A stretch of 64,000 bases of DNA from assembly GCA_030765065.1 (NCBI GenBank), contig CM060986.1:80407573-80471572 (forward strand), written 5' to 3'. Source of the stretch: Deroplatys truncata. Its lineage: Eukaryota; Arthropoda; Insecta; Mantodea; Mantidae. The translations under genes were made by a program, and so were the position numbers. Positions 6,766-56,425 of this stretch are shown here, in pieces. The notes under the pieces are model-generated. The model did no database searches and was not told the DNA's origin. It saw only the letters and a program-made list of their open reading frames with translations. Positions within the stretch are counted from its first letter, which is position 1, and each line of letters starts with the position of its first letter.

Positions 6766-8222
6766 CTACTACTCAGAAACACTCTAAAATGGCCCTAATA
6801 ATAATCCTGGACGAACAAAATTTTAATTTGTAGGAAGCGCATCATCCTACTTACCCATATAACCCGCCAAAGGTGCACAGACTTTATAAAAGAATATAAT
6901 ATAGACACGTTGGGACAATAATGTGTTGTTGGAAACCAACACTTTTGCTGCTGGACACCACTAGAATTATTCCAGTAAGTTTTAGTACTTTGGTAAATAG
7001 GTAATATCTATTCTAGTTATTGTAGATGCGGGCTTCCAGTACTAATAATAATTCACGAATGCTTTGTTGACTTTATGGTAGTTACAGTTTAATTGCAATT
7101 TATTTTATTTTGTTTTAATTTACTTTAATTTTATGTTAGTAGTTAGTATTAAATCTGTATATACAACCATATTGTATAAACTAATAAGGCTAAGGGAAAT
7201 AAATAGAAAATTTGGAATACACGTCCTGTTGTAGACAACTAGATGCCAGGAAGGAGCATTACAGATTTTATTTTATTTTATTTTTAGTTTGTTTCCAGAG
7301 GGTGTAGTTTTCCTTGAAACACAGCTACAACAGAGGTATTTAAAGGCTAAGTATTCATATTTATTTCAAGGTCTCACTGTGATCAAATTGTATTATTAGC
7401 CTTTCTTGACGATAATTCAACTTAGATCCTTCAAAGACTTCATTTAATTTTCAAGAAACAAATCATAATATTATCCCCAACTTTGCTGATTACCATTCAA
7501 TACAACTAATGGTAACTTTAGAGTTTATATTTGCAACAAATCACATTACGGCTTATTGTAACAAAATAAGTGTAATACGCATATAAGGTACTTTTTGTAT
7601 AGAAACCTTATAAGACTATATATTTAAAATTTTATAAATGTGCAGTTAAATTACAAAATATTGCAACATATGTAAAAGAGAGCGGATGATATTGTGCGAT
7701 TTCCGACCTAAAAGCTAAATATCGTAGTATAAAGAATATATTTAACAAGTTACACCATCTGAAATATGTATAAGCCAGCGATGTTTTAAAATACCAAGCT
7801 GCTTTGCACACACTCTCCTAGACAAATAAATGTTGATTCATTGAAATGATGGAATATCCTTGTTTAACATTTCCATTATTTATTTTTTGTATGTAACAAA
7901 TGTTTAGTTTTGTTACATTAAAAACAAATAGTTTCATTGTTTGAGTTAGAAGTCCGTTTCAGATTACGTAACAACAGAATGTTGTTTGAAAGCAACTTTA
8001 GTTTTTCGCACGTAATTTTGCTAACACTTTTACAAAATAAAGCTGATTTGTGTGCATGTATCTAGTCAACTTTGGGATGCGTTCGGCTTTTACTGCCAGA
8101 AGTTAATTTATTAAAACTTGGATATATACGGTTCACTAAGAATTTGGAATTAGCAAACTAAATTGAGTACAAAGCACATTTAAGAAGAGTACACAATGAT
8201 AGTAGTGAATGCTTACTTAGTA
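6766..8222. other. intergenic stretch, nothing recognised
   Basis: Very AT-rich DNA with no supported coding frame. It lies downstream of the 3' end of the CRAL-TRIO gene. Confidence 0.4.
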
Positions 8223-20500: not shown

Positions 20501-23500
20501 TTTAAAGTCTTGACAACATTCAGTTGTTTCTCACGATTGCATGGAAACAGTATGCAATTTTAAGCGCCAGCATATAGCATTGAGTTGTTAAATATTTGAC
20601 TATCGTTGTTCTCTTTGTATCTGTAACGAAATGTGTAATGCAGCTATTTCTGTAAAGGATTATTTGGATTAAAATGGAACAGACAGAAAATAAGGTTTAG
20701 TAAGAATGTTTTGTATACCCGAAAATAAAAGATAGAGGATAGGGAAGTCATGTGAATGTAACACATCAGCATTTTTTCTGTGAAGTGGTGCAGAATTCAC
20801 AGTACGAATTGGTAGATGCAGAAAAATGTTCAAAATATATAAAAATAAAATCTGATGTGTTACACTCACATGACTTTCTCTACTCTTGTATAAACTATTT
20901 TTACAAACTCTTATTCTCCATTTATTTCATCTTAATCGAGATAAAACATTAGCAGAAACGATCTTTTGACATGCAAAGAGAATTACGTTTTACACATAGC
21001 GACCAGTTCTAAAAATATTTGACTTTCGCTTAAGGCGTACTATGTTCCCCTTGTTTTGTAATTGCAAGGGCAATATAGAAATACAGTAGACTTTAAGCAT
21101 AGACATATCTCTTAATATCTGGTTGCTATGTGCAGTACCATTCTCTTTGCCACAGATTAATGCTCTTTGCATATCCAAGACAAAAAAATGAATAACGAAT
21201 TTCCATTTGAGAAAAAAGTATTGATAGTTTAAGGGAATAACAAGCAATATCTCGAAAATGGTTCACTCAACAAGAAAAAATGTATATGACATAAATTGTG
21301 TATTTTAACGCGATCTACATTTTTGGTGTCTATTTCTTATGGTTTACCAGTTATGCAAAAGTCGTTCGAAATGAAGAATACTTTTGGAGACATTCCCAGA
21401 AAATTCGAGATATACATTTCATTTGTCATAAAAATATCTTAAACATATGATACTTAAATCAAAATAGTTAGACATTTTTGAGAAAATGAAAATTTTCGAA
21501 AAATCTTCCATGTAAAGGTAATCTGGGGTGGGGGATTTTCTTGAAAACCTTCGTGTTGCATCTCTGGAAGATATTGAACCTAAATACCAAGTTTGGTGTT
21601 TATCCGACTGTTGGGTGGAATACAATACTTCCCCTACTTACTACACGTAGTAGAGAAAGTAATAATTATTGTGTCTACAATGATAAAACACGTATATGAA
21701 GCTAAAGGAGGAAACTACAATTAATAAGACAGCAGAAAAACTAAACGTATCTTTGTTTTGGCAATTTTCGCCATTTAGTTTCCCCTTAACAACTTTATCT
21801 TATCCTTTTATTATAAGAAACTCGTACTTAAAATAAATAAGTTTTCTGAAGGCCAGCTACAGAGAATGATTACATAACATATCATTTTATTGTACTCTAA
21901 CAGAAGGTGTGAAGATGTCAGAAATTATTACCTGGAAGATAACTGTAGCTTTCTTCATCAAGGATGGAGTGAAGTGACTAACTTGAGCTAGGGTGCTGCC
22001 GGAGTGGTCTAGCAACCCCACAGTGCCGTTGATGATTGCGCGATCGTCGTCTCTGATCATTAAATCCATGACCATAAGTTGAACCTTAAGAATATCTGGA
22101 AATTTCATCTCCTCTGGATCATAGCCGCCATTTCTCATCAAAATCACTCTTCTTCCTTCAGGATCTGGTTCAGGCAGGGGTATCATAGGCCTATTCAATA
22201 AGAATTTGTTATACAGTTGTTGATCTAGATTAGCCACTTGAGAGAATGCGGTTTGAGATGTTAGACTTAGGACTTACTTTTACGAAGGACAGAAAATAAG
22301 ACGTTTGGTCACTTAAAAGTATTCGATAGTGGCTTGATGTAAACAAACGTAAGGTCGCGGACCTCCTGCAAGGGGCGGGATTACTTCGAACAATGTATTC
22401 GCTTCCTTGTTTAATGATGGAGGTTGTATTCATTCCTTCATTCCTAAATGAAGTGCTGGACAAAATGGGGCCCGGACTGCGTGCTGAAGCACTTGAATTT
22501 GAAATGTATTGATGCCCCTTAATTTAATGAAAACCTTGTATATTTTTGCAAAAATTATTAATGTTGTATAATTGAAGAGCAGAAAGGGAAAAGGGTAGGT
22601 ATATGTTGCCGCTAGATTTGGAGAAAGGTTAGAAAATATTTACATTGCATTCTAAATAAATTGTTAATGCCTTCCTTGTATGTATAAATGTCCTTGTTTT
22701 ATAAACAACGTAAGTGCACTTTATATTCTACATTTCGGCCTTTATATTAAAACAGGGTTCTATAAAGATTGTGGTACTTAATGTCTATTTACCCTAACTT
22801 GGCAACGAGGCCCTTATTTTGTAAGAATTATATAATAACATTTTTGTGCTTGTAACCAGTACTGCTGCATAGGCATGGGGAGTACATTTGTTTCCATAAA
22901 AATGTTGTGTTTTATTTTTGAGGGCATTTATGTCCTTTTCCCCGTTCGTGCTTCAATTATGCTTTATCATTAATGATACATATTTTAGTTTCTTTGTACT
23001 CGTTGAATATGAACTTGCTGTTTAGTTGTATAATTTTAAAACCTTAAATACACTAAAAGCAACATTTTCCCCATATTTGAAAACATTTAAGTTCTGGTAT
23101 GCCGTAGTTAAATTCAAATGTGAAACTGTGTGTGTTTTAGAGAGGTCCATTCATGATTTAAATGAAAACTCTTCGCTAACAAACATTACCGAGGCCATTA
23201 AAGGATATCCTGCTGAAACAAATTATTTTTAACGAACGTTTATATAATATATAATGACGTATATAGAGTTAAATTACATTTATGAAACCTATCGTTTGTT
23301 AATTACTGCTTCTCACCTTTAGAATTAATTTGACTAGCTTATAAAGCTATTTTTCCTCTCAAAACGTCGTACTCTACAGTTTTATAATAACTGATTTCTT
23401 ATTACTAGCATAAGATTCTTTAGCAATTGACTTGAACTTATCTACACTCAAACCATTGTCACAACAAATCATGTAAACAATATTGGCTACGAATCACTGA

Positions 23501-33984: not shown

Positions 33985-34700
33985 ACAGAAAATCTTATGT
34001 GATACATTCAGATGACCTTGCTTAACCTTTATCGTTTATTAGTCTATATACAAACAACTCTTACGGAAACATGTTAATCCAGTTAAACCTTTGCAGAAAT
34101 AGCTGCATTACACATTTTGTATACAGATACAAAGGGAACAGTGATTGTCAAATGTTTAAGAACTGGATGCTATACTCTGGCCTTAAAATTCCATACTGTT
34201 TCCATGCAATCGCGAGAAACAACAGAACGTTGATAGGACTTTTAAGAAAATGACAAGAAATAAACAATTCGAACGTTTAGTAACGGATGTCTGCGAAATG
34301 GAATTGTGTGTTTTAAAGAGATCCACATTTTTGTGTAGTACGTTTTCGTCTATTGCTTAACTTTTACCAGTTATACAAGATTGTACAAAATTCCTTCCGA
34401 ATGAAGCGAACTGCATAAGCTATTGCCAGTAAATTCAAGATATACGTTTTATTTGTCACGCAAATATCTTTCATATATGTTATTTCAACCTAAATCGTTA
34501 CAGCCATTTTTAGAAAATTAAAAATTTCGAAAAATACTTCATGTAAAGAGTAGCTTGGGATAAGGGGATTTTCTCGAAAACTTTCGTATTGCAACTTGGG
34601 AAGGTACTGAACTGAAATAACAAGTTTGTTGTTGATCCGACTTTTCCTTTTTGAGCTAAGCTGTTCACACACACACATTCATATGCGAGGACCTTTTTAC
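33985..34700 (-). repeat. interspersed repeat F1, copy f
   Basis: It begins tgatacattcagatgacctt and runs through ccatactgtttccatgcaat. It ends near acacattcatatgcgagg, so its outer end is truncated. It abuts copy g, which is inverted. Confidence 0.75.
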
Positions 34701-34701
34701 T

Positions 34702-35500
34702 TTCTCTACTACGTATAGTAAGTAGGGGAAGTATTGTATTCCACCCAAAAATTCGATACCGAGATTTCACCGGAAATACATGTTTTGAGACCCCCTGAAT
34801 CCGAAAAACCGCATTTTTGGAAACATGTCCGTGTGTGTGTGTGTGTGTGTGTTTGTTAACAGCGTAACTCAGAAACGAACAGTCGGATAAACGCAAAACT
34901 TGGTATTTAGGTTCCATATCTTCCAGAGATGCAACACAAAAGTTTTCAAGAAAATCTCCCCACCCTAGATTACCCTTTACATGGAACATTTTTCGAAAAT
35001 TTTAATTTTCTCAAAAACGGTCTTAACGATATTGATTAAAATATCATATGTTTAAGATATTCTCATGACAAATGAAATGTATATCTCGAATTTTCTGGGA
35101 ATGTTTCCAAAGGTATTCTTCATTGTGAACGACTTTTGCATAACTGGTAAACCATAAGAGATAGACAAAATTGTACTACACAAAAAATGTAGATCGCGTT
35201 AAAATACACAATTTATGTATACATTTTGCTTTGTCGAGTGAACCATTTTCGAGATATTCCTTGTTATTTGTTTGAATTTTCCATTGCTTATCTTTTTCTC
35301 AAATGGGAATTCGTTATTTGTTTTTTTTATGTCCTGGACCTTCAAAGAGAATGAAATGCTCCACATAGCATTTAAAGATTAAAATATTTGACTATCGCTT
35401 AAAGCCTACCAATATTCCCCTTGCATCTACAAGAAAATTGGCAATAATATTAACATCTCGATGTCTCAATTAATATGAAATAGATGGAGAAAACAACCCA
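34702..35500 (+). repeat. interspersed repeat F1, copy g
   Basis: It opens with the full end tactttctctactacgtata and gtaagtaggggaagtattg. It includes a (TG)n tract at about 34829-34853 and ends near aatatgaaatagatggag. With copy f it makes a head-to-head inverted pair. Confidence 0.85.
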
Positions 35501-36485: not shown

Positions 36486-36491
36486 CCCGTT
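36486..36491. repeat. left 6-bp target-site duplication CCCGTT
   Basis: It directly abuts the first base of the palindrome (36492). The same six bases directly abut its last base on the other side (53659-53664). Confidence 0.85.
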
Positions 36492-36501
36492 AGTAGTAAT
36501 A

Positions 36502-36650
36502 GTCCCGGATGAGCCAATTGTTTTAACGATAATCCTGCCGCTAGGGGCGCTAGTGTCGCTAGTGTCGCTGCGTGCGACGGCGGCGGCGGTAAGTTTGAAA
36601 AGCGCCCTGAGCGGTAGGATTATCGTTAAATCGGTTGGCTCATCCGGGAC
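36502..36650. repeat. 149-bp subterminal hairpin, left
   Basis: gtcccggatgagccaattg starts it and its inverted copy ends it, with 41-bp imperfect inverted arms that continue through aacgataatcct. The loop holds gctagtgtcgctagtgtcgc and cggcggcgg. It begins 10 bp inside the end of the giant element. Confidence 0.85.
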
Positions 36651-39260
36651 GAGTTGAAAGAATTGAGGAAGTGACGTGGAGTGTTTTGATTGGTTCGTTA
36701 ATTTGGGGTGGGAGATGGAGGAAGGGAGATGGAGGAGTATGGAGTTCGCGTGATGGAGAGGAGCTGGGTGGCGAGGTGTTGTCTGTGCGGAGGTCGGTAC
36801 TGAAAGAGGGGTAAAGATGGGGAGCGAGGGATAAAAAGTGTAAAGGAAAGTGACGTGTGAAGTTGTGATTGGTGGGAATAAGAAGTGATTTTATTGGTGG
36901 AAAGGAGCAAATGAGAGTTGTTGATTGGTAAGAATAAGAGGGATTATGATTGGTGGAAAGAAAAAGGTGTGGGAGTGGGGTATGTTGGAGGTGATGGGAA
37001 AGGTAAGCTTTGCTAGCAGCAAGATTTGCAAAAGCCTGTCGTGAACTGATCAGCAATTTTTTTGAACGTTGGATGGTAGTTTTTTCTTGAGTGGATAGAG
37101 AGATGGGGGGCGATATGAGATGCGGTGGCGAAAATGGGAACTAAACAAGGTGTTTGAGACAAGAGGTTTAAGGACGAGGAAATTTTGAGGTTAGTGGTGA
37201 ACATGGCGGTCGCAAGAGGTGGGGGGTAAGGAGACGCGGTGGTGAGAATGGGAACTAAAAGAAGATGGGGGAAGCAAGAGTTTAGAAGAGTAGATTTTGA
37301 GGTTAAAATAGTGGGAACTAAAAATGGCGGAGGGTCTGCGACAAGGAGATGCGGTGAGAACTAAACAAGATGGCGGACGCAAGAGGTGGGTAAGGAGGTT
37401 TGAGGTTACAGTACGAAAACACGAAAGGATATATTCCTACGCCAAGCAGGTCCGAAAAATAATTATGCGTGTGGTACTTACCTGTTACCGGTGTGGATGC
37501 GTCACCAAAAGCGCGGCACGCGACGCGAAAAAATAAAAGCAAACTGTTTTTGAAAATGCTTAACCAGCTTTAAGATCAACCAACATCACTACGCACTGAT
37601 ATACCTAGGTTTTTAAAGCGGTACAGACACCCTTTGCAGAGGCGTAATTTAACTATACCAAAAACCTGGTACTGGACCATCGTGATGGTCGCTAGCGTAC
37701 GTAGGAGCAGGGTTCTCAAGCCGGTCGAAAGCGGTCAAAAACGTGTACGACGTAGGTGTTCGCAGTAGCTGCTGTCGAGTCAACCGTCGAGGTGTGAATA
37801 AACGAGATCTGTTCTCGCCGGCAATTTGGTTCGGAGATGTGAGCAGCGGCGAGGTGTTGTCTGTGCGGAGGTCGGGACTGAAAGAGGGAAAAGATGGGGA
37901 GCGAGGGATAAAAAGTGTAACAGAAAGTGACGTGTGAAGTTGTGATTGGTGGGAATAAGAAGTGATTTTATTGGTGGAAAGGAGCAAATGAAAGTTGCTG
38001 ATTGGTAAGAATAAGAGAGGTTATGATTGGTGGAAAGAAAAAGGAGTGGGGTATGTTGGAGGTGATGGGAAAGGTAAGTTTTGCTAGCAACAAGATTTGC
38101 AAAAGCCTGTCGTGAACTGATCAGCAATTTTTGAACGTTGGATGGTAGTTTTCTTGAGTGGATAGAGAGATGGGGCGATATGAGATGCGGTGGCGAAAAT
38201 GGGAACTAAACAAGGTGGTTGAGACAAGAGGTTTAAGGACGAGGAAATTTGGAGGTTAGTGGTGAACATGGCGGTCGCAAGAGGTGGGGGTAAGGAGACG
38301 CGGTGGTGAGAATGGGAACTAAAAGAAGATGGCGGTAGCAAGAGGTTAGAAGAGTAGATTTTGAGGTTAAAATAGCGGGAACTAAAAATGGCGGAGGGTC
38401 TGCGACAAGGAGATGCGGTGAGAACTAAACAAGATGGCGGACGCAAGAGGAGGGTAAGGAGGTTTGAGGTTACAGTACCAAAACACGAAAGGATATATTC
38501 CTACGCCAAGCAGGTGCGAAAAATAATTATGCGTGTGGTACTTACCTGTTACCGGTGTGGATGCGTCACCAAAAGCGCGGCACGCGACGCGAAAAAATAA
38601 AAGCAAACTGTTTTTGAAAATGCTTAACCAGCTTTAAGATCAACCAACATCACTACGCACTGATATACCTAGGTTTTTAAAGCGGTACAGACACCCTTTG
38701 CAGAGGCGTAATTTAACTATACCAAAACCTGGTACTGGACCATCGTGATGGTCGCTAGCGTACGTAGGAGCAGGGTTCTCAAGCCGGTCGAAAGCGGTCA
38801 AAAACGTGTACGACGTAGGTGTTCACAGTAGCTGCTGTCGAGTCAACCGTCGAGGTGCGAATGAACGAGATCTGTTCTTGCAGGCAATCTGGTTGGGAGA
38901 TGAGAGGCGCGGTGGTAAAAATGTGAACTAAATAAGATGGCGGAGGCACGAAGTTGAGGTTAAGGAGCGGTGAGGCGTTGTCTGTGCGGCGGTTGGGGTC
39001 TGAAAGAGGGGGAAAGATGGCGAACGAGGGATAAAAAGTATAACAGAAGTGACGTGCGAAGTTGTGATTGGTGGGAATAAGAAGTGACGTTATTGGTGGA
39101 AAGGAACAAATGAAAGTTGTTGATTGGTGAGAATAAGAGAGATTATGATTGGTGGAAAGAAAAAAGGTGTGGGAGTGGGGTATGTTGGAGGTGATGGAAA
39201 AGGTGAGTTTTGCTACCAACAACATTTGCAAAAGCCTATGCAGAACTCATCAGCAATTTT
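36651..39260 (-). repeat. tandem 1,064-bp units, left arm
   Basis: Two nearly identical units are offset by 1,064 bp (for example gcggagggtc at 37327 and 38391), and a diverged partial third reaches 39260. Read on the minus strand each unit has CCAAT boxes, ACGTCAC, TTTTTATCC, TCAGT, a splice-donor-like cag/gtaagta, and repeated cgccatctt...tttagttc blocks. Open frames of 63-138 codons in the units are not conserved between them and are not called. Confidence 0.85.
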
Positions 39261-39700
39261 AAATAACTAGTGTTTCGGGGTTTTCTCTGGTTGGTAGACG
39301 AATGCAAGCTGTTTCTGCCATACTTATATTATTCGACTTTTCCTTTTTTTTTCGTCTTTTTTAAAAAATAACTAGTTTTTGGGGTTTTCTGCGGATGGGA
39401 AACGAATGCGAGCTCTTTCTGCTTTTTCATAGGTTTTCCCTGGTCGGTAGGCGTTTTCTGTACTGGTTGACGAAGGCGTTTCTAATTTTGGAGGTTTTCT
39501 CAGGTTTTTAGCGGTTGTCCCTGCCCGGTAGGCAAATGATGAAGTTTTACCTTGTCGGCGCACGGATACTAGGCACGTACTGGCGCGCACACACACACAC
39601 ACACACAGAGAGAGACAGATAGACACACAGACAGGCACACACACACACACGGACATGTTTCCAAAAATGCTTTTTTTTTTTTTTTTTTTTTTTTTTGATT
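39261..39700 (+). repeat. degenerate SINE-tail repeats and microsatellites, left arm
   Basis: Several copies of a phrase like gttttccctggtcggtaggc recur every 40-70 bp, then a (CA)n/(GA)n tract and a poly-T run (39671-39696). The phrase is the one found after the tRNA head of the window's SINEs. Confidence 0.6.
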
Positions 39701-40016
39701 CAGGAGGTCTCAAAACGTGTATTTCCGGTGAAATCTCGGTATCGAATTTTTGGGCGGAATGCAATACTTCCCCTACTTACTATACGTAGTAGAGAAAGTA
39801 AAAAAGTATTGAAAAATTTAAGGAAATAACAAGCAATATCTCAAAAGTGTACTATCTTGTTTTCAAGGGTTTTCCAGATCGGTAAGCGTTAGAATACTCT
39901 TAGAGCTTTTTTCAGGTTTTTTAGCGGTTGTCCCTGGCCGGTAGGCAATTGATAAAGTTTTTCTATAACGACGTCGTTTTGGCTTGTGGCGCACGGTTCC
40001 TAGGCACGTACTCGCG

Positions 40017-40065
<49 letters not shown>

Positions 40066-42480
40066 ATAGTAGCGTATAAAAAACTGATTTGTTACACTCA
40101 CATAACTTTCTCTACTCTTGTACAATCTAATTGGTAGCTTTTAAGCGATAGTCAAATATTTTAACGCTGGTTGCTATGTGGCGAATTCCATTCTGTTTGC
40201 ATGTTCAGGACATAAAAAAAATGAATAAACGAATTTGAGAAAAAGTATAAGTATTGGAAAATTTAAGGAAATAACAAGCAATATCTCGAAAACGGTTCAC
40301 TCAACAAAAGAAACGTATATGACATAAGTTGTGTATTTTAACGCGATCTACATTTTTTGTGTAGTAAAATTTTGTCTATCTCTTATGGTTTACCAGTTAT
40401 GCAAAAAAGTCGTTCACAATGAAGAATATTTTTGGAGACATTCCCAGAAAATTCGAGATATACATTTTATTTGACATGACAATATCTTAAACATATTATG
40501 TTTTAATCAAAATCGTTAGAGCCGTTTTTGAGAAAATTAAAATTTTCGAAAAATGTTCCATGTAAAGGGTAGTCTGGGGTGGGGGGATTTTCTTGAAAAC
40601 CTTCGTGTCGCATCTCTGGAAGATACTGAACCTAAATACCAAGTTTGGTGTTTATCCGACTGTTCGTTTTTGAGTTATGCTGTTCACAGACACACAGACA
40701 CACAGACAGACACACACACGGACATGTTTCCAAAAATGCTTTTTTTTTTTTGGATTCAGAGATTCTCAAAACATGTATTTCCAGTGAAATCTCGGTAACG
40801 AATTTTTGGGTGGAATGCAATACTTCCCCTACTTACTATACGTAGTAGAGAAAGTAAAAATGAATAACGCATTTGAGAAAAAGTATAAGTATTGGAAAAT
40901 TTAAAGGAAATAACAAGCAATATCTCGAAATACGGTTCACTCAACAAAATAAATGTATATGGCATAAGTTGTGTATTTTAACGCGATCTACATTTTTTGT
41001 GTAGCAAACTTTTGTCTATCTCTTACGGTTTATCAGTTATGAAAAAGTCGTTCACAATGAAGAATTCTTTTGGAGACATTACCAGAAAATTCGAGATATA
41101 CATTTCATTTCTCTCGACATTATCTTAAATATATGATATTTTCATCAAAATCGTTAGAGCCATTTTTTAATACAAAGAGAACGGGATTTCACAAGTGAAA
41201 CAGTACTGTGATAACGATACCACTGAAACAAAAAAAAAAATCTGATGTGTAACACTCACATGACTTTCTCAACTCTTGTACAAAGTATTTTTACAAACGC
41301 TTATTCCCCATCTAGTTCATGTTAATCGAGATAAACATTTGCAAAATCTATTTTATTGCTAATTTTCTTGTATAAAAAAAAAATCTGATGTGTAACACTC
41401 ACATGACGTTCTCTACTCTTGTACAAAGTATTTTTACAAACGCTTATGCTCCATCTAGTTCATGTTAATCGAGATAAACATTTGCAAACTCTATTTTATT
41501 GCTAATTTTCTTGTAGATGTAGGGGAAAATATATTTACAAGGGGAATATAGAAAAACAGTAGCCTTTAAGCACATACATATCTCTTAATAGCTGGTTGCT
41601 ATGTGCAACACCATTCTTTTTGCCACAGATTAATACTGTTTGCATATCAAAGACAAAAAAAAAAATGAATAACGAAGTCCCATTTGAGAAAATAAATATT
41701 GGAAAATTAACAAACAATATCTCGAAAACGGTTCACTCAACAACAAAAATGTATATTACATAAGATGTGTATTTTAACGCGATCTACATTTTTTGTGTAG
41801 TAAAATTTTGTCTATCTCTTACGGTTTTTCAGTTATGAAAAAGACGTTCACAATGAAGAATACTTTTGGAGACATTCCCAGAAAATTCGAGATATACATT
41901 TCATTTCTCACGACATTATATTAAACATACGATATTTTTCATCAAAATCGTTAGAGCCATTTTTTTTAATACAAAGAGAACGGGATTTCACAAGTGAAAC
42001 AGTACTGTGATAACGATACCAACAAAACTAATTATTATTCACCCACTGAAACACATAAAAAAAATCTGATGTGTAACACTCACATGACTTTTCTCATCTC
42101 TTGTACAAAGTATTTTTACAAACGCTTATTCCCCATCTAGTTCATGTTAATCGAGATAAACATTTGCAAACTCTGTTTTATTGCTAATTTTGTTGTAGAT
42201 GTAGGGAAAATATATTTACAAGGGGAATATAGAAAAACAGTAGCCTTTAAGCACATACATATCTCTTAATAGCTGGTTGCTATGTGCAGTACCATTCTTT
42301 TTGCCACAGATTAATACTCTTTGCATATCAAAGACAAAAAAAAAAATGAATAACGAATTCCCATTTGAGAAAATAACTATTGGAAAATTTAAGTAAATAA
42401 CAAGCAATATCTCGAAAACGGTTCACTCAACAATAAAGATGTATATGACATAAGTTGTGTATTTTAACGCGATCTACATA
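39700..42480 (-). repeat. cluster of F1 repeat copies, left arm
   Basis: At least four partial F1 copies lie here, in both orientations. Markers are cttcccctacttactatacg (39768 and 40824), tctgatgtgtaacactcaca (41249, 41387, 42066) and cgttagagcc (40513, 41152, 41948). A (CA)n tract lies at 40025-40061. A similar set is mirrored in the right arm. Confidence 0.8.
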
Positions 42481-42936
42481 CTTTCGTACTCACCTATAAG
42501 ATATAGAGGGTAGAGGTCGTACGAACGTAGCACTTTGAGAATCTATATTCAACAGTTGGTGTTACTCCTTAGAAAGGAAGTATCTGCTGATTTTTATTTA
42601 ATTCTTTACATTTTACATAGCACGTATGCACTGGCACAACACAAAAGCACTACACACAATTCTCAGTTTTAATATTTGCACTAATAACATCAGGAATAAC
42701 TGAAGTCTGCAAACAGTCATTTCCCATGTGCAGCCTTACGTACAGAAAACGTGTGTGGCTGATCTATGTGTAAAAAGAGCCTGAGAGCGGATGTACGTCA
42801 GCGGTAAAATCTTTTAAATGCATTTTTATTGGCGATGGTAGAAATCGTGCAGTGGTGGATCGTGAAAATTCATATAAATGGATGTATCACCTCATAATAA
42901 GCCTCTATATACCAAGAATATTGAGTTTTTAAAAAG
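42481..42936 (-). other. unique arm segment with outward splice-donor match
   Basis: On the minus strand it ends tatcttatag/gtgagtacg, a good donor match, just before F1 sequence starts. No coding frame accompanies it. The mirror is 47223-47680. Confidence 0.35.
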
Positions 42937-44503
42937 TCAGCAACTGTACCTGTGTTTCTATACGTGAACGTCAGATGGCAGCTTCGATACGTGTCCACGG
43001 AGACCTTAGTGCTAGGCAACTGTACCTCTGTTTCTATACGTGAACGGCAGATTGCAGCTTCGATACGTGTCCACGGAGACCTTAGTGCTAGGCAACTGTA
43101 CCTCTGTTTCTATACGTGAACGGCAGATTGCAGCTTCGATACGTGTCCACGGAGACCTTAGTGCTAGGCAACTGCACCTCTGTTTCTATACGTGAACGGC
43201 AGATTGCAGCTTCGATACGTGTCCACGGAGACCTTAGCGCTAGGCAACTGCACCTCTGTTTCTATACGTGAACGGCAGATTGCAGCTTCGATACGTGTCC
43301 ACGGAGACCTTAGTGCTAGGCAACTGTACCTCTGTTTCTATACGTGAACGGCAGATTGCAGCTTCGATACGTGTCCACGGAGACCTTAGTGCTAGGCAAC
43401 TGTACCTCTGTTTCTATACGTGAACGGCAGATTGCAGCTTCGATACGTGTCCACGGAGACCTTAGTGCTAGGCAACTGCACCTCTGTTTCTATACGTGAA
43501 CGGCAGATTGCAGCTTCGATACGTATCCACGGAGACCTTAGTGCTAGGCAACTGCACCTCTGTTTCTATACGTGAACGGCAGATTGCAGCTTCAATACGT
43601 GTCCACGGAGACCTTAGTGCTAGGCAACTGTACCTCTGTTTCTATACGTGAACGGGAGATTGCAGCTTCGATACGTGTCCACGGAGACCTTAGTGCTAGG
43701 CAACTGCACCTCTGTTTCTATACGTGAACGTCAGATTGCAGCTTCGATACGTGTCCACGGAGACCTTAGTGCTAGGCAACTGCACCTCTGTTTCTATACG
43801 TGAACGGCAGATTGCAGCTTCGATACGTATCCACGGGGACCTTAGTGCTAGGGAACTGCACCTCTGTTTGTATACGTGAACGGCAGATTGCAGCTTCAAT
43901 ACGTGTACACGGAGACCTTAGTGCTAGGCAGCTGTACCTCTGTTTCTATACGTGAACGGCAGATTGCAGCTTCGATACGTGTCCACGGAGATCTTAGTGC
44001 TAGGCAGCTATACCTGTTTCTATACGTCAACGGCAGATTGCAGCTTCGATACGTGTTCACGGAGACCTTAGTGCTAGGCAACTGTACCTGTGTTTCTATA
44101 CGTGTCCACGGAGACCTTAGTGCTAGACAACTGTACCTCTGTTTCTATACGTGAACGGCAGATTGCAGCTTCAATACGTGTCCACGGAGACCTTAGTGCT
44201 AGTGCTAGGCAACTATACCTCTGTTTCTATACGTGAACGGCAGATTGCAGGTTCGATACGTGTCCACGGAGATCTTAGTGCTAGGCAACTATACCTGTTT
44301 CTATACGTGAACGGCAGATTGCAGCTTCGATACGTGTCCACGGAGACCTTAGTGCTAGGCAACTGTACCTGTGTTTCTATACGTGAACGTCAGATGGCAG
44401 CTTCGATACGTGTCCACGGAGACCTTAGTGTTAGGCAACTGTACCTCTGTTTCTATACGTGAACGGCAGATTGCAGCTTCGATACGTGTCCACGGAGACC
44501 TTT
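42937..44503. repeat. 76-bp minisatellite, about 20 copies, left arm
   Basis: The unit contains ctgtttctatacgtgaacgg, cagattgcagcttcgatacg and tgtccacggagaccttagtg. Cggcag recurs at 43045, 43121 and onward every 76 bp. Some units are shortened (44075-44100) or have a duplicated gtgcta. As 76 is not a multiple of three, the open frames that cross it change frame at each unit and are not genes. Confidence 0.97.
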
Positions 44504-45066
44504 CGCTTCAGGTGACAAAATAACACTAGGCACTTGTGTGCCGTGGTGTAAGCCGCAATCACGGTATTGGTAGCGTGGATCTCCTTGGGGCTCTCCTCGG
44601 AGTTACCTCAACACCACGTACATGACCTGGTTCGTCACGGGTACGCAGGTCTGCACTACCACTTCCTCGGCGTTGAGCAGGCCCAGGAGGCGATCGTACC
44701 GGTACACCAGCTAGCACGTGGACATGTTATCGCGCTGTGGTGTTGCGTGTGCGAGGTATGGAAACTCAAGGACGCAAAACATGCACGACCGAGGGTTAAA
44801 AAGCAGAACAAGTAGTGACGTGGAGCGTTGTGATTGGTGTAAATAAGACGATCTCTGATAGGTGGACAAATTGAAATAACGTGATGTGATAGGCGAAAAT
44901 AAAATCAAAGGTGATTGGATGAAAAATGACGAGAAGGAATTAGCGGTGAATTTGTGAACTAAGATGGCGAAGATTTTTTTTTTTTTTAAAAAAAAGGATA
45001 ATATAAGTACGGCAACTGTAACGGTTTACGGCAAACGCGCGCCGCGCAATGCGTCACGCCCGGGCA
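44504..45066. repeat. inner module of the left arm
   Basis: A GC-rich stretch (44560-44800) is followed by a block whose minus strand holds CCAAT, ccacgtcac and an AT run, a relative of the promoter-like blocks. Then come an a/t-rich run and a 60-bp GC-rich end at the centre. An 82-codon open frame at 44567-44815 has no recognisable product. Confidence 0.6.
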
Positions 45067-45093
45067 ATAAAACAAAAATCATATTGAGCAAGA
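45067..45093. other. 27-nt spacer at the centre of the palindrome
   Basis: AT-rich spacer between the arms (ataaaacaaaaatcatattg starts it). The innermost arm bases (gcccgggca and tgcccggc) differ by one base. Confidence 0.85.
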
Positions 45094-45652
45094 TGCCCGG
45101 CGTGACGCATTGCGCGGCGCGCGTTTGCCGTAAACCGTTACAGTTGCCGTACTTATATTATCCTTTTTTTTAAAAAAAAAAAAATCTTCGCCATCTTAGT
45201 TCACAAATTCACCGCTAATTCCTTCTCGTCATTTTTCATCCAATCACCTTTGATTTTATTTTCGCCTATCACATCACGTTATTTCAATTTGTCCACCTAT
45301 CAGAGATCGTCTTATTTACACCAATCACAACGCTCCACGTCACTACTTGTTCTGCTTTTTAACCCTCGGTCGTGCATGTTTTGCGTCCTTGAGTTTCCAT
45401 ACCTCGCACACGCAACACCACAGCGCGATAACATGTCCACGTGCTAGCTGGTGTACCGGTACGATCGCCTCCTGGGCCTGCTCAACGCCGAGGAAGTGGT
45501 AGTGCAGACCTGCGTACCCGTGACGAACCAGGTCATGTACGTGGTGTTGAGGTAACTCCGAGGAGAGCCCCAAGGAGATCCACGCTACCAATACCGTGAT
45601 TGCGGCTTACACCACGGCACACAAGTGCCTAGTGTTATTTTGTCACCTGAAG
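45094..45652. repeat. inner module of the right arm
   Basis: Mirror of 44504-45066. Confidence 0.6.
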
Positions 45653-47222
45653 CGAAAGGTCTCCGTGGACACGTATCGAAGCTGCAATCTGCCGTTCACG
45701 TATAGAAACAGAGGTACAGTTGCCTAACACTAAGGTCTCCGTGGACACGTATCGAAGCTGCCATCTGACGTTCACGTATAGAAACACAGGTACAGTTGCC
45801 TAGCACTAAGGTCTCCGTGGACACGTATCGAAGCTGCAATCTGCCGTTCACGTATAGAAACAGGTATAGTTGCCTAGCACTAAGATCTCCGTGGACACGT
45901 ATCGAACCTGCAATCTGCCGTTCACGTATAGAAACAGAGGTATAGTTGCCTAGCACTAGCACTAAGGTCTCCGTGGACACGTATTGAAGCTGCAATCTGC
46001 CGTTCACGTATAGAAACAGAGGTACAGTTGTCTAGCACTAAGGTCTCCGTGGACACGTATAGAAACACAGGTACAGTTGCCTAGCACTAAGGTCTCCGTG
46101 AACACGTATCGAAGCTGCAATCTGCCGTTGACGTATAGAAACAGGTATAGCTGCCTAGCACTAAGATCTCCGTGGACACGTATCGAAGCTGCAATCTGCC
46201 GTTCACGTATAGAAACAGAGGTACAGCTGCCTAGCACTAAGGTCTCCGTGTACACGTATTGAAGCTGCAATCTGCCGTTCACGTATACAAACAGAGGTGC
46301 AGTTCCCTAGCACTAAGGTCCCCGTGGATACGTATCGAAGCTGCAATCTGCCGTTCACGTATAGAAACAGAGGTGCAGTTGCCTAGCACTAAGGTCTCCG
46401 TGGACACGTATCGAAGCTGCAATCTGACGTTCACGTATAGAAACAGAGGTGCAGTTGCCTAGCACTAAGGTCTCCGTGGACACGTATCGAAGCTGCAATC
46501 TCCCGTTCACGTATAGAAACAGAGGTACAGTTGCCTAGCACTAAGGTCTCCGTGGACACGTATTGAAGCTGCAATCTGCCGTTCACGTATAGAAACAGAG
46601 GTGCAGTTGCCTAGCACTAAGGTCTCCGTGGATACGTATCGAAGCTGCAATCTGCCGTTCACGTATAGAAACAGAGGTGCAGTTGCCTAGCACTAAGGTC
46701 TCCGTGGACACGTATCGAAGCTGCAATCTGCCGTTCACGTATAGAAACAGAGGTACAGTTGCCTAGCACTAAGGTCTCCGTGGACACGTATCGAAGCTGC
46801 AATCTGCCGTTCACGTATAGAAACAGAGGTACAGTTGCCTAGCACTAAGGTCTCCGTGGACACGTATCGAAGCTGCAATCTGCCGTTCACGTATAGAAAC
46901 AGAGGTGCAGTTGCCTAGCGCTAAGGTCTCCGTGGACACGTATCGAAGCTGCAATCTGCCGTTCACGTATAGAAACAGAGGTGCAGTTGCCTAGCACTAA
47001 GGTCTCCGTGGACACGTATCGAAGCTGCAATCTGCCGTTCACGTATAGAAACAGAGGTACAGTTGCCTAGCACTAAGGTCTCCGTGGACACGTATCGAAG
47101 CTGCAATCTGCCGTTCACGTATAGAAACAGAGGTACAGTTGCCTAGCACTAAGGTCTCCGTGGACACGTATCGAAGCTGCCATCTGACGTTCACGTATAG
47201 AAACACAGGTACAGTTGCTGAC
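45653..47222. repeat. 76-bp minisatellite, right arm
   Basis: Mirror copy of the left-arm array. It has the same order of variant units, including the truncated unit (near 46060) and the gtgcta duplication (near 45957). The array was therefore copied whole rather than grown separately. Confidence 0.97.
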
Positions 47223-47679
47223 TTTTTAAAAACTCAATATTCTTGGTATATAGAGGCTTATTATGAGGTGATACATCCATTTATATGAATTTTCACGATC
47301 CACCACTGCACGATTTCTACCATCGCCAATAAAAATGCATTTAAAAGATTTTACCGCTGACGTACATCCGCTCTCAGGCTCTTTTTACACATAGATCAGC
47401 CACACACGTTTTCTGTACGTAAGGCTGCACATGGGAAATGACTGTTTGCAGACTTCAGTTATTCCTGATGTTATTAGTGCAAATATTAAAACTGAGTATT
47501 GTGTGTAGTGCTTTTGTGTTGTGCCAGTGCATACGTGCTATGTAAAATGTAAAGAATTAAATAAAAATCAGCAGATACTTCCTTTCTAAGGAGTAACACC
47601 AACTGTTGAATATAGATTCTCAAAGTGCTACGTTCGTACGACCTCTACCCTCTATATCTTATAGGTGAGTACGAAAGTA

Positions 47680-50093
47680 TGTAGATCGCGTTAAAATACA
47701 CAACTTATGTCATATACATCTTTATTGTTGAGTGAACCGTTTTCGAGATATTGCTTGTTATTTACTTAAATTTTCCAATAGTTATTTTCTCAAATGGGAA
47801 TTCGTTATTCATTTTTTTTTTTTTGTCTTTGATATGCAAAGAGTATTAATCTGTGGCAAAAAGAATGGTACTGCACATAGCAACCAGCTATTAAGAGATA
47901 TGTATGTGCTTAAAGGCTACTGTTTTTCTATATTCCCCTTGTAAATATATTTTCCCTACATCTACAACAAAATTAGCAATAAAACAGAGTTTGCAAATGT
48001 TTATCTCGATTAACATGAACTAGATGGGGAATAAGCGTTTGTAAAAATACTTTGTACAAGAGATGAGAAAAGTCATGTGAGTGTTACACATCAGATTTTT
48101 TTTATGTGTTTCAGTGGGTGAATAATAATTAGTTTTGTTGGTATCGTTATCACAGTACTGTTTCACTTGTGAAATCCCGTTCTCTTTGTATTAAAAAAAA
48201 TGGCTCTAACGATTTTGATGAAAAATATCGTATGTTTAATATAATGTCGTGAGAAATGAAATGTATATCTCGAATTTTCTGGGAATGTCTCCAAAAGTAT
48301 TCTTCATTGTGAACGTCTTTTTCATAACTGAAAAACCGTAAGAGATAGACAAAATTTTACTACACAAAAAATGTAGATCGCGTTAAAATACACATCTTAT
48401 GTAATATACATTTTTGTTGTTGAGTGAACCGTTTTCGAGATATTGTTTGTTAATTTTCCAATATTTATTTTCTCAAATGGGACTTCGTTATTCATTTTTT
48501 TTTTGTCTTTGATATGCAAACAGTATTAATCTGTGGCAAAAAGAATGGTGTTGCACATAGCAACCAGCTATTAAGAGATATGTATGTGCTTAAAGGCTAC
48601 TGTTTTTCTATATTCCCCTTGTAAATATATTTTCCCCTACATCTACAAGAAAATTAGCAATAAAATAGAGTTTGCAAATGTTTATCTCGATTAACATGAA
48701 CTAGATGGAGCATAAGCGTTTGTAAAAATACTTTGTACAAGAGTAGAGAACGTCATGTGAGTGTTACACATCAGATTTTTTTTTTATACAAGAAAATTAG
48801 CAATAAAATAGATTTTGCAAATGTTTATCTCGATTAACATGAACTAGATGGGGAATAAGCGTTTGTAAAAATACTTTGTACAAGAGTTGAGAAAGTCATG
48901 TGAGTGTTACACATCAGATTTTTTTTTTTGTTTCAGTGGTATCGTTATCACAGTACTGTTTCACTTGTGAAATCCCGTTCTCTTTGTATTAAAAAATGGC
49001 TCTAACGATTTTGATGAAAATATCATATATTTAAGATAATGTCGAGAGAAATGAAATGTATATCTCGAATTTTCTGGTAATGTCTCCAAAAGAATTCTTC
49101 ATTGTGAACGACTTTTTCATAACTGATAAACCGTAAGAGATAGACAAAAGTTTGCTACACAAAAAATGTAGATCGCGTTAAAATACACAACTTATGCCAT
49201 ATACATTTATTTTGTTGAGTGAACCGTATTTCGAGATATTGCTTGTTATTTCCTTTAAATTTTCCAATACTTATACTTTTTCTCAAATGCGTTATTCATT
49301 TTTACTTTCTCTACTACGTATAGTAAGTAGGGGAAGTATTGCATTCCACCCAAAAATTCGTTACCGAGATTTCACTGGAAATACATGTTTTGAGAATCTC
49401 TGAATCCAAAAAAAAAAAAGCATTTTTGGAAACATGTCCGTGTGTGTGTCTGTCTGTGTGTCTGTGTGTCTGTGAACAGCATAACTCAAAAACGAACAGT
49501 CGGATAAACACCAAACTTGGTATTTAGGTTCAGTATCTTCCAGAGATGCGACACGAAGGTTTTCAAGAAAATCCCCCCACCCCAGACTACCCTTTACATG
49601 GAACATTTTTCGAAAATTTTAATTTTCTCAAAAACGGCTCTAACGATTTTGATTAAAACATAATATGTTTAAGATATTGTCATGTCAAATAAAATGTATA
49701 TCTCGAATTTTCTGGGAATGTCTCCAAAAATATTCTTCATTGTGAACGACTTTTTTGCATAACTGGTAAACCATAAGAGATAGACAAAATTTTACTACAC
49801 AAAAAATGTAGATCGCGTTAAAATACACAACTTATGTCATATACGTTTCTTTTGTTGAGTGAACCGTTTTCGAGATATTGCTTGTTATTTCCTTAAATTT
49901 TCCAATACTTATACTTTTTCTCAAATTCGTTTATTCATTTTTTTTATGTCCTGAACATGCAAACAGAATGGAATTCGCCACATAGCAACCAGCGTTAAAA
50001 TATTTGACTATCGCTTAAAAGCTACCAATTAGATTGTACAAGAGTAGAGAAAGTTATGTGAGTGTAACAAATCAGTTTTTTATACGCTACTAT

Positions 50094-50134
<41 letters not shown>

Positions 50135-50450
50135 CGCGCGAGTACGTGCCTAGGAACCGTGCGCCACAAGCCAAAACGACGTCGTTATAGAAAAACTTTA
50201 TCAATTGCCTACCGGCCAGGGACAACCGCTAAAAAACCTGAAAAAAGCTCTAAGAGTATTCTAACGCTTACCGATCTGGAAAACCCTTGAAAACAAGATA
50301 GTACACTTTTGAGATATTGCTTGTTATTTCCTTAAATTTTTCAATACTTTTTTACTTTCTCTACTACGTATAGTAAGTAGGGGAAGTATTGCATTCCGCC
50401 CAAAAATTCGATACCGAGATTTCACCGGAAATACACGTTTTGAGACCTCC
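47680..50450 (+). repeat. cluster of F1 repeat copies, right arm
   Basis: Mirror of 39700-42480. The (TG)n and poly-A tracts are a few units shorter than in the left arm, which is the main difference between the arms. Confidence 0.8.
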
Positions 50451-50989
50451 TGAATCAAAAAAAAAAAAAAAAAAAAAAAGCATTTTTGGAAACATGTCCG
50501 TGTGTGTGTGTGTGTGCCTGTCTGTGTGTCTATCTGTCTCTCTCTGTGTGTGTGTGTGTGTGCGCGCCAGTACGTGCCTAGTATCCGTGCGCCGACAAGG
50601 TAAAACTTCATCATTTGCCTACCGGGCAGGGACAACCGCTAAAAACCTGAGAAAACCTCCAAAATTAGAAACGCCTTCGTCAACCAGTACAGAAAACGCC
50701 TACCGACCAGGGAAAACCTATGAAAAAGCAGAAAGAGCTCGCATTCGTTTCCCATCCGCAGAAAACCCCAAAAACTAGTTATTTTTTAAAAAAGACGAAA
50801 AAAAAAGGAAAAGTCGAATAATATAAGTATGGCAGAAACAGCTTGCATTCGTCTACCAACCAGAGAAAACCCCGAAACACTAGTTATTTAAAATTGCTGA
50901 TGAGTTCTGCATAGGCTTTTGCAAATGTTGTTGGTAGCAAAACTCACCTTTTCCATCACCTCCAACATACCCCACTCCCACACCTTTTT

Positions 50990-51152
50990 TCTTTCCACCA
51001 ATCATAATCTCTCTTATTCTCACCAATCAACAACTTTCATTTGTTCCTTTCCACCAATAACGTCACTTCTTATTCCCACCAATCACAACTTCGCACGTCA
51101 CTTCTGTTATACTTTTTATCCCTCGTTCGCCATCTTTCCCCCTCTTTCAGAC
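50990..51152 (+). promoter_or_regulatory. promoter-like block 1, right arm
   Basis: Four CCAAT boxes about 30-40 bp apart are followed by gcacgtcac, then TTTTTAT (51113-51119) and TCAG (51147-51150). The TATA-to-initiator distance is about 36 bp. The mirror is at about 39000-39160 on the minus strand. Confidence 0.5.
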
Positions 51153-52116
51153 CCCAACCGCCGCACAGACAACGCCTCACCGCTCCTTAACCTCAACTTC
51201 GTGCCTCCGCCATCTTATTTAGTTCACATTTTTACCACCGCGCCTCTCATCTCCCAACCAGATTGCCTGCAAGAACAGATCTCGTTCATTCGCACCTCGA
51301 CGGTTGACTCGACAGCAGCTACTGTGAACACCTACGTCGTACACGTTTTTGACCGCTTTCGACCGGCTTGAGAACCCTGCTCCTACGTACGCTAGCGACC
51401 ATCACGATGGTCCAGTACCAGGTTTTGGTATAGTTAAATTACGCCTCTGCAAAGGGTGTCTGTACCGCTTTAAAAACCTAGGTATATCAGTGCGTAGTGA
51501 TGTTGGTTGATCTTAAAGCTGGTTAAGCATTTTCAAAAACAGTTTGCTTTTATTTTTTCGCGTCGCGTGCCGCGCTTTTGGTGACGCATCCACACCGGTA
51601 ACAGGTAAGTACCACACGCATAATTATTTTTCGCACCTGCTTGGCGTAGGAATATATCCTTTCGTGTTTTGGTACTGTAACCTCAAACCTCCTTACCCTC
51701 CTCTTGCGTCCGCCATCTTGTTTAGTTCTCACCGCATCTCCTTGTCGCAGACCCTCCGCCATTTTTAGTTCCCGCTATTTTAACCTCAAAATCTACTCTT
51801 CTAACCTCTTGCTACCGCCATCTTCTTTTAGTTCCCATTCTCACCACCGCGTCTCCTTACCCCCACCTCTTGCGACCGCCATGTTCACCACTAACCTCCA
51901 AATTTCCTCGTCCTTAAACCTCTTGTCTCAACCACCTTGTTTAGTTCCCATTTTCGCCACCGCATCTCATATCGCCCCATCTCTCTATCCACTCAAGAAA
52001 ACTACCATCCAACGTTCAAAAATTGCTGATCAGTTCACGACAGGCTTTTGCAAATCTTGTTGCTAGCAAAACTTACCTTTCCCATCACCTCCAACATACC
52101 CCACTCCTTTTTCTTT

Positions 52117-52273
52117 CCACCAATCATAACCTCTCTTATTCTTACCAATCAGCAACTTTCATTTGCTCCTTTCCACCAATAAAATCACTTCTTATTCCCA
52201 CCAATCACAACTTCACACGTCACTTTCTGTTACACTTTTTATCCCTCGCTCCCCATCTTTTCCCTCTTTCAGT
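52117..52273 (+). promoter_or_regulatory. promoter-like block 2, right arm
   Basis: Four CCAAT boxes precede cacacgtcac, TTTTTAT (52236-52242) and the arthropod initiator TCAGT (52269-52273). A strong splice-donor match, acag/gtaagta, lies about 400 bp downstream (52665-52672). The mirror is at about 37877-38033 on the minus strand. Confidence 0.55.
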
Positions 52274-53193
52274 CCCGACCTCCGCACAGACAACACCTCG
52301 CCGCTGCTCACATCTCCGAACCAAATTGCCGGCGAGAACAGATCTCGTTTATTCACACCTCGACGGTTGACTCGACAGCAGCTACTGCGAACACCTACGT
52401 CGTACACGTTTTTGACCGCTTTCGACCGGCTTGAGAACCCTGCTCCTACGTACGCTAGCGACCATCACGATGGTCCAGTACCAGGTTTTTGGTATAGTTA
52501 AATTACGCCTCTGCAAAGGGTGTCTGTACCGCTTTAAAAACCTAGGTATATCAGTGCGTAGTGATGTTGGTTGATCTTAAAGCTGGTTAAGCATTTTCAA
52601 AAACAGTTTGCTTTTATTTTTTCGCGTCGCGTGCCGCGCTTTTGGTGACGCATCCACACCGGTAACAGGTAAGTACCACACGCATAATTATTTTTCGGAC
52701 CTGCTTGGCGTAGGAATATATCCTTTCGTGTTTTCGTACTGTAACCTCAAACCTCCTTACCCACCTCTTGCGTCCGCCATCTTGTTTAGTTCTCACCGCA
52801 TCTCCTTGTCGCAGACCCTCCGCCATTTTTAGTTCCCACTATTTTAACCTCAAAATCTACTCTTCTAAACTCTTGCTTCCCCCATCTTCTTTTAGTTCCC
52901 ATTCTCACCACCGCGTCTCCTTACCCCCCACCTCTTGCGACCGCCATGTTCACCACTAACCTCAAAATTTCCTCGTCCTTAAACCTCTTGTCTCAAACAC
53001 CTTGTTTAGTTCCCATTTTCGCCACCGCATCTCATATCGCCCCCCATCTCTCTATCCACTCAAGAAAAAACTACCATCCAACGTTCAAAAAAATTGCTGA
53101 TCAGTTCACGACAGGCTTTTGCAAATCTTGCTGCTAGCAAAGCTTACCTTTCCCATCACCTCCAACATACCCCACTCCCACACCTTTTTCTTT

Positions 53194-53351
53194 CCACCAA
53201 TCATAATCCCTCTTATTCTTACCAATCAACAACTCTCATTTGCTCCTTTCCACCAATAAAATCACTTCTTATTCCCACCAATCACAACTTCACACGTCAC
53301 TTTCCTTTACACTTTTTATCCCTCGCTCCCCATCTTTACCCCTCTTTCAGT
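53194..53351 (+). promoter_or_regulatory. promoter-like block 3, right arm
   Basis: Same layout as block 2: CCAAT boxes, cacacgtcac, TTTTTAT (53313-53319) and TCAGT (53347-53351). Transcripts from it would run out of the element into the right flank. The mirror is at about 36799-36956 on the minus strand. Confidence 0.5.
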
Positions 53352-53501
53352 ACCGACCTCCGCACAGACAACACCTCGCCACCCAGCTCCTCTCCATCAC
53401 GCGAACTCCATACTCCTCCATCTCCCTTCCTCCATCTCCCACCCCAAATTAACGAACCAATCAAAACACTACACGTCACTTCCTCAATTCTTTCAACTCG
53501 T

Positions 53502-53648
53502 CCCGGATGAGCCAACCGATTTAACGATAATCCTAACGCTCAGGGCGCTTTTCAAACTTACCGCCGCCGCCGTCGCACGCAGCGACACTAGCGACACTAG
53601 CGCCCCTAGCGGCAGGATTATCGTTAAATCAATTGGCTCATCCGGGAC
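53502..53648. repeat. subterminal hairpin, right copy
   Basis: Mirror copy of the 36502-36650 hairpin at the other end. It has one a/c and one a/t difference in the stems. Confidence 0.85.
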
Positions 53649-53658
53649 TATTACTACT

Positions 53659-53664
53659 CCCGTT
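53659..53664. repeat. right 6-bp target-site duplication CCCGTT
   Basis: It directly follows the last palindromic base. Joined to the left flank it gives a plausible empty site, ccatttcccgttgctcatg. Confidence 0.85.
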
Positions 53665-55889: not shown

Positions 55890-56425
55890 CTCTCGACTTA
55901 GAGTGAAATGCTGCCTGAACGCTTCTGCAGTAGAGCGGTCGATTTATCGACGGCTCACTCCCATAGATAGGAAATATTTCCTGAAGATTTATGAATTTGA
56001 TAAATGGCTTGGTGTAATATCCTTCCTCAATATTTCTGTAGTCGAGAAGTCGATTTGTCAAGGGCTTTCTCGGCTTGAAGGAAAATGTTTCCTGAACTTT
56101 TCTGAAGCCAAATCGACTTATTGAAGGTTCAATCGGTTTGATGGGAAATTTTTCCTTAAGATATCTTAAGCTGAGATGTCGATTTATTGAGGGCTCACTG
56201 GCCTTGGTGAAATATACTTTCTGAAGATATCTGAAGTGGAGAAGTCGATTTCTTGAAGGCCCAGTCAGCTTGATGCGAAATGGTTCCTGAAGATATCCGA
56301 AGTCGAGATTTCGACTTCTTGAAGGTCCACTCGGCTTGATGGGAAATACTTCCTGAAGGTATCTGAAGCCAAGAACTCTATTTATCTGCGGCTTACTCGG
56401 TTGGGTAGAAAGTCCCTCCTGTTAA
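55890..56425 (+). repeat. degenerate tandem repeat of 63-66 bp
   Basis: About seven units share tcgattt(a/c)ttgaagg, ctcggcttgatgggaaata and cttcctgaagatatctgaag. Units from 56049 on are 63 or 66 bp. The plus-strand frame gives a 22-residue motif (EKSIYRGLTRLDGKYFLKIS), but the same TGA occurs at one position in most units, so an expressed repeat protein is unlikely. Confidence 0.8.

Follow-up and report, generated by a model that had tools for sequence, protein, structure and literature searches.

The window analyzed here is a stretch of 64,000 nucleotides from the mantis Deroplatys truncata (assembly GCA_030765065.1, contig CM060986.1, forward-strand positions 80,407,573 to 80,471,572). It holds a palindromic element of 17,167 bp, within the 15- to 20-kb size of Polintons, which by its ends and the sequence next to them is a non-autonomous Polinton (Maverick) derivative. 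A BLAST comparison of the window with itself returned an inverted match of 36492-53658 to 53658-36492, with 99.63% identity over 17187 columns, in agreement with a first-pass annotation that had described a near-perfect palindrome with arms of ~8.57 kb and a 27-nt spacer. Alignment of the two arms outside the center revealed 5 single-base and 7 length differences, all of the latter in base runs or simple repeats. The termini read AGTAGTAATAG...CTATTACTACT, with the motif AGTAGT...ACTACT at the ends of the inverted termini, i.e., (AGT)2//(ACT)2. The hexamer CCCGTT adjoins each end and lies outside the palindrome itself. An additional hairpin of ~149 nt (36502-36650) starts 10 nt inside the left end, with the mirror sequence at the right end. 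DNA folding of the 229-nt terminal stretch gave -62.8 kcal/mol (z -13.3), and 0 of 200 shuffles folded equally well. The element is laid out as follows.

36486..36491, no strand: left target-site duplication CCCGTT, from the sequence
36492..45066, + strand: left palindrome arm, from the self-match and the arm alignment
36492..36650, + strand: left terminal inverted repeat with the (AGT)2 end-motif and the ~149-nt hairpin; the first 170 nt are identical to the T1 left end (see below)
36492..42672, + strand: arm part tracking a Polinton left end upstream of the PolB frame, from comparison with L029 41-5921
36755..39260, + strand: G-rich repeat units R1 (36755-37849), R2 (37833-38912, 95%) and R3 (38963-39260, partial, 88%)
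42940..44502, + strand: 76-bp minisatellite of ~20 units, mirror copy at 45656-47218, no match in T1
44500..44721, - strand: inverted, broken piece of a PolB gene of Polinton type, split between two reading frames; mirror copy at ~45438-45660, + strand
44720..44924, + strand: diverged R-unit copy close to the center (R4), 64-67% identity
45067..45093, no strand: 27-nt spacer, the turn-round point; a 28-nt search pattern covers most of it
45094..53658, - strand: right palindrome arm, from the self-match and the arm alignment
53500..53658, - strand: right terminal inverted repeat, structured as the left one, ending in (ACT)2
53659..53664, no strand: right target-site duplication CCCGTT, from the sequence

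The first-pass annotation had noted Polinton-like ends and duplication and had proposed a search for a same-ended relative encoding polymerase B and integrase. Such a relative, T1, is present in the same genome (C1:80867430-80887186, L029/L030). It is 19.76 kb long, has the ends of the window element and a GATGAC duplication, and is not a palindrome, its inverted repeats being ~160 bp. Its PolB matched PF03175 with an E value of 9e-44 (1231 residues of the frame, as contained in L029), and its integrase matched rve (E 1.3e-15) and Chromo (E 5.5e-7) as well as solved retroviral integrases (best E 9.9e-11; prototype foamy virus [PFV] integrase, 1.8e-9). T1 thus carries both genes expected of an autonomous Polinton. 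A P-loop frame and a Peptidase_C5 match (adenovirus-type protease, E 0.049) remained under the cut-off. By eye, other long T1 frames look like capsid proteins; they had no Pfam match, and the one tried against PDB, the likely major capsid frame, had no sequence match there. A genome search for PolB yielded 11882 first-look candidates, of which 76 were scored, giving 152 matches; none of 14 control genomes matched. The open frames ranged from 634 to 1350 residues among the matches listed, with 1261, 1276 and 1281 recurring; the Polinton load of this genome looks very high. The terminal hairpins had prompted the idea of a parvovirus-like inverted dimer, which was rejected, as T1 has the same terminal sequence.

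The outer part of the window arm follows the T1 left end block by block, with expanded repeat units. The first 170 nt read identically, the main blocks are 93 to 96% identical and the last block 86%, and the segment from 41167 to 42480 gave only repeat matches and one short collinear block. The element and an autonomous-type Polinton of the same genome thus have ends and flanking sequence in common, and the earlier suggestion of a gutted Polinton relative is likely correct. The label "new type of non-autonomous element" is apt for a new variant, but the variant falls inside the Polinton kind. Further inward, the arm contains in order the 76-bp minisatellite, which is absent from T1, the inverted PolB scrap and the diverged copy of the outer repeat.

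No Pfam match above the curated cut-off was found on either strand of the window arm, using stop-to-stop frames or whole frames with X at stops; this includes transposase domains, capsid proteins, ATPase and protease. The match with the lowest E value, Catalase-rel (1.5e-6), scored 28.7 bits where 30.1 are required; it is located within the 76-bp repeat array and was dismissed as spurious. In place of the protein-primed PolB and the rve integrase of an autonomous Polinton, the arm has a broken PolB scrap of ~200 bp. Positions 44524-44721 are 78% identical in DNA to the PolB of T1 (L029 9472-9668), and the frame pieces share 63% (E 4e-10) and 56% (E 7e-8) of their amino acids with it. The identity of the two pieces came only from this comparison; queried alone, they had no Pfam or PDB match. 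Positions 44500-44740, used as a genome query, had no match, their own locus included, in a search that passes over very common words. The first-pass statement that no Polinton gene is visible therefore holds for intact genes, but not for this inverted remnant in each arm. Lacking PolB and integrase genes, the window element is a derivative rather than an autonomous Polinton.

The genome searched comprises 4.29 Gb in 818 contigs. The 24-bp terminus occurs 2083 times without mismatch (1048 + 1035; reversed control, 0), and the 28-nt pattern spanning most of the spacer 609 times. The 100 terminus matches listed among the 2083 all lie on contig C1 and form 44 opposite-facing pairs and 12 single ends, hereafter the C1 sample. 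Of the 44 pairs, 20 enclose the spacer pattern, which sits at 0.46-0.51 of the element length; among the 35 C1 spacers considered, 15 are outside the exact-terminus pairs. Ten further copies were read whole. They were picked among the best 40 scored matches, seven of them for having both ends listed, a selection that leans toward the window element's own subfamily. All ten are palindromes, of 16.6 to 19.2 kb, and nine carry the window element's spacer. In copy E7, ~1.5 kb at the center is non-palindromic, and copy E4 has a ~1.95-kb stretch in a single arm. These searches show a palindrome family of several hundred copies. Neither the terminal pattern nor a degenerate PolB-motif pattern had a match in the viral contigs searched.

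Whether palindromic or not, all 44 elements examined that have these ends are flanked by perfect 6-bp duplications, and 43 of the hexamers are distinct, which excludes a chance flanking repeat. This set is made up of the window element, the ten others, three further C1 elements and 30 of 30 C1 pairs; 34 of the 44 C1 pairs are represented in it, Polinton-type elements among them. The view of the palindrome as a single inserted element with an exact CCCGTT duplication is borne out, and a local inverted duplication was rejected. The target preference is symmetric, roughly N-A-C-G-T-N, with a pyrimidine-purine center in 36 of 44 targets compared with 24.3% of window hexamers. When the flanks of E7 were joined with one copy of the duplication, they matched an unoccupied copy of a repeat over 585 of 594 aligned bases (97%), supplying the kind of empty site that had been called for. 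Altogether, 13 of 41 joined flanks matched across the junction in the DNA examined, the best listed at 72.9 to 97% identity.

The 44 C1 pairs comprise 20 palindromes of the window type (W-type) with the spacer, 2 of the T3 type described below with its junction, 3 elements whose ends are inverted over at least 724 bp (judged on no more than 750 bp), 13 that carry an exact Polinton-type right end on one side, 3 in which the inversion is limited to ~159 bp, the short element T2 and 2 unclassified pairs. The 25 palindromes measure 13.9 to 18.6 kb (median, 17.7) and the 16 Polinton-type elements 18.1 to 27.6 kb (median, 19.55 kb). This exact right end is confined to a single end in all 13 elements that have it, and none of the 44 pairs has the exact pattern at both ends; this negative concerns the exact pattern only, as versions with 1 to 3 mismatches were counted (989, exact ones included) without positions. 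Only left-end palindromes were seen in the C1 sample. A 5.9-kb element with the same ends (L031, C1:233586282-233592204; duplication GGCGGC) matches the palindrome center and rearranged arm pieces; it is a shorter derivative.

T3 is a 15.3-kb palindrome with arms of ~7.1 kb, an unpaired center of ~1 kb and an AAGCTT duplication. It has the same Polinton left end at each terminus, and its turn-round point differs from that of the window element. At its junction, left-end sequence up to 5457 joins inverted sequence from 6238 (75% identity), just ahead of the PolB frame (6306). The junction occurs 30 times in the genome, 28 times exactly, including once within another C1 pair; T3 alone was read. 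This second turn-round point indicates that palindromes probably arose more than once, although the center of a common palindrome may instead have been remodeled later. In both the window element and T3, one parental end is doubled around a turn-round point, and the centers differ.

Arms were compared in ten elements with the spacer, i.e., the window element and nine of the ten others, E7 being left out. Arm-to-arm substitution amounts to 2.4 to 29 per 10 kb, and reaches ~130 between elements. Of the 20 arms, 17 have their sister as the nearest arm; both E4 arms depart from this, and in E1 there is a tie. The two arms agree in all ten elements at 131 of 151 informative sites, compared with a mean of 3.0 and a maximum of 23 in 500 random pairings, and no site is fixed between all A and all B arms. 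These comparisons show that the arms evolve in concert. The ten elements display 92 arm-to-arm differences. In 54 of them one letter is confined to a single arm, and such private differences (22 of 26 in S1, 13 of 14 in E3) suggest that arms diverge after insertion.

We consider it likely that these palindromes are a high-copy, non-autonomous Polinton derivative that was born by snap-back and is moved in trans by Polinton enzymes. In the founding event, protein-primed copying of a linear Polinton genome would have turned back on itself. The resulting linear molecule would bear the left end at each terminus and so keep two origins and two integrase ends. The polymerase, terminal protein and integrase of a Polinton would serve this molecule in trans. 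Mobilization in trans by a Polinton partner is likely because ends and duplication length are shared with T1; that the parent's polymerase produced the palindrome during replication we infer only. A displaced single strand would be self-complementary and could form an ~8.5-kb hairpin with a 27-nt loop, and repair or recopying in the hairpin state would even out the arms ahead of integration. The near-Polinton length may hint that the palindrome is also packaged.

Several observations weigh against this account. The PolB scrap is 78% identical to T1 and the ends ~96%, pointing to an older or other Polinton lineage as the source of the inner arm, and the minisatellite, the scrap and R4 together imply that this family did not begin with a simple snap-back of a left end like that of T1. 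T1 is the sole element read whole among the 16 Polinton-type elements of the C1 sample, and the mechanism is read from integrated sequences. The joined-flank search found no empty site for the window insertion among the DNA examined. Homogenization is also incomplete. In E4, the two arms resemble E1 more closely than they resemble one another, and 38 of the 92 arm-to-arm differences have both letters in other elements. E2 and E6 share a 7-site difference tract, and the shared arm differences of the window element (3) and S2 (6) sit in the outer 0.2 to 0.4 kb, both of which point to exchange between elements. When the comparison is restricted to the five elements closest to one another, the arms are concerted at 19 of 27 sites against a random mean of 2.3, and the best of 500 random pairings equals the observed 19.

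The founding event might instead have been chromosomal, by head-to-head recombination of left ends or by fold-back at a break, with the whole palindrome mobilized afterwards and gene conversion keeping the arms alike as in sex-chromosome palindromes; the T3 type could then be the same palindrome with a remodeled center. The spacer common to nine of ten copies, with its pattern present 609 times, indicates one founder, the origin of which sequence cannot show, and gene conversion could likewise yield concerted arms. However, the second turn-round point speaks against this scenario, and the private arm differences together with the one-arm stretch of E4 indicate that chromosomal conversion is not fast. 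We thus regard a chromosomal founding as unlikely. It is more doubtful still that the palindromes are moved by the integrase alone, without protein-primed replication. Insertion strictly requires integrase ends only, but the hundreds of copies, the (AGT)2 end-motif and the near-Polinton size fit replication, if indirectly. A classic Foldback, Galileo (P superfamily) or Mutator-like element (MULE) fold-back element with its own cut-and-paste transposase is hardly credible: its very long inverted repeats and internal tandem repeats would look alike, but the 6-bp duplications and AGT ends match Polintons, the outer arm tracks the left end of an integrase-bearing Polinton of the same genome, and neither strand of the arm has a Pfam match over the cut-off. 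Finally, long palindromes made by inverted chimeric reads are a known error of some libraries, but the palindrome is not such an assembly artifact, a reading left with practically no probability by the 609 spacer patterns, the 2083 exact termini, the 44 of 44 duplications with different flanks and the one-arm stretch of E4.

Other features of the window were recorded. The outer arm (36492-39300) contains eight AANATGGCGG motifs (first-order Markov mean 0.03, maximum 1 among 300) and ten GATTGG (mean 1.7, maximum 7), both counts being raised by tandem duplication; we take these motifs to resemble YY1/Pho and CCAAT sites. Repeats 72 to 90% identical to the AT-rich arm part lie in the flanks at 34694-35413, 21059-21612 and 2124-2958; they represent either a host repeat that Polinton left ends have acquired or the remnants of older elements. 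An (ACC)n array of 1.68 kb at 5083-6766 (562 units, 99% matches) generates long open frames by itself, and a 66-bp tandem repeat is present at 56022-56400 (5.8 copies, 71% matches). A weak Transposase_1 (mariner-type) match on the + strand at 14001-14432 (E 1.4e-4, 22.1 bits) is under the cut-off of 24. The window contains no tRNA and no RNA family reaching the gathering score.

If Polintons multiply as free linear genomes with protein priming and form particles, defective snap-back genomes are the residue to be expected. The integrated palindromes number in the hundreds, have concerted arms and near-parental length and, in the sample, are left-end forms only. They offer a record for testing replication origin, packaging signal and size limit; the palindromes may thus record how Polintons are copied and spread. 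They also show that very large palindromes are able to persist at high copy in a genome. As a tentative extension, the palindromes may be heritable satellites of Polintons, i.e., left-end snap-back products that replicate through hairpins, carry a left-end packaging signal, are packaged in particles, interfere with their parent and become fixed in the germ line by the hundreds. In that case, the repeated homogenization of the arms would reflect a Polinton life cycle that is extrachromosomal and protein-primed.

A palindromic non-autonomous Polinton is surprising in its size, copy number and concerted arms. Foldback, Galileo and TU elements likewise have very long inverted repeats and internal tandem repeats; they differ in duplication length and enzymes and are smaller. 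With Polintons/Mavericks, the palindrome shares the 6-bp duplication, (AGT)2//(ACT)2, inverted termini and a length of 15 to 20 kb; unlike them, it has no recognizable intact gene, and its inverted repeats span almost its full length rather than ~160 bp as in T1. In PMC8097293, (AGT)2//(ACT)2 ends with 6-bp duplications are a reported Maverick signature, and the end repeats, with a value of 402 ± 276 bp that we take for their length in vertebrates, are interpreted as a requirement for the jumping-back step when replication is protein-primed. The same text gives vertebrate Maverick sizes varying by ~10% around ~17 kb, numerous defective copies (287 in axolotl, 280 in tuatara) and particles as not yet observed. 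PMC4028283 gives 15 to 20 kb for Polintons and rejects the former proposal of Tlr as a non-autonomous Polinton derivative. Among the top-ranked open-licence papers, judged from titles, abstract openings and excerpts, we found no description of palindromic or non-autonomous Polinton elements of this sort.

Two viral systems provide analogies rather than tests. According to PMC8235507, adeno-associated virus (AAV) naturally gives symmetric and asymmetric snap-back genomes. These resemble the present elements in that one parental end is doubled as a palindrome, in symmetric or asymmetric form, and depends on a helper. In contrast, AAV uses rolling hairpins with Rep and yields both 5' and 3' forms, whereas the elements described here are integrated and, in the C1 sample, left-end only. 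In adenovirus, the packaging domain is located at the left end (PMC5033970), as a repeat-bearing cis signal beside the left terminal repeat. By analogy, a comparable left-end packaging signal in the palindrome would explain why it is the left end that was doubled.

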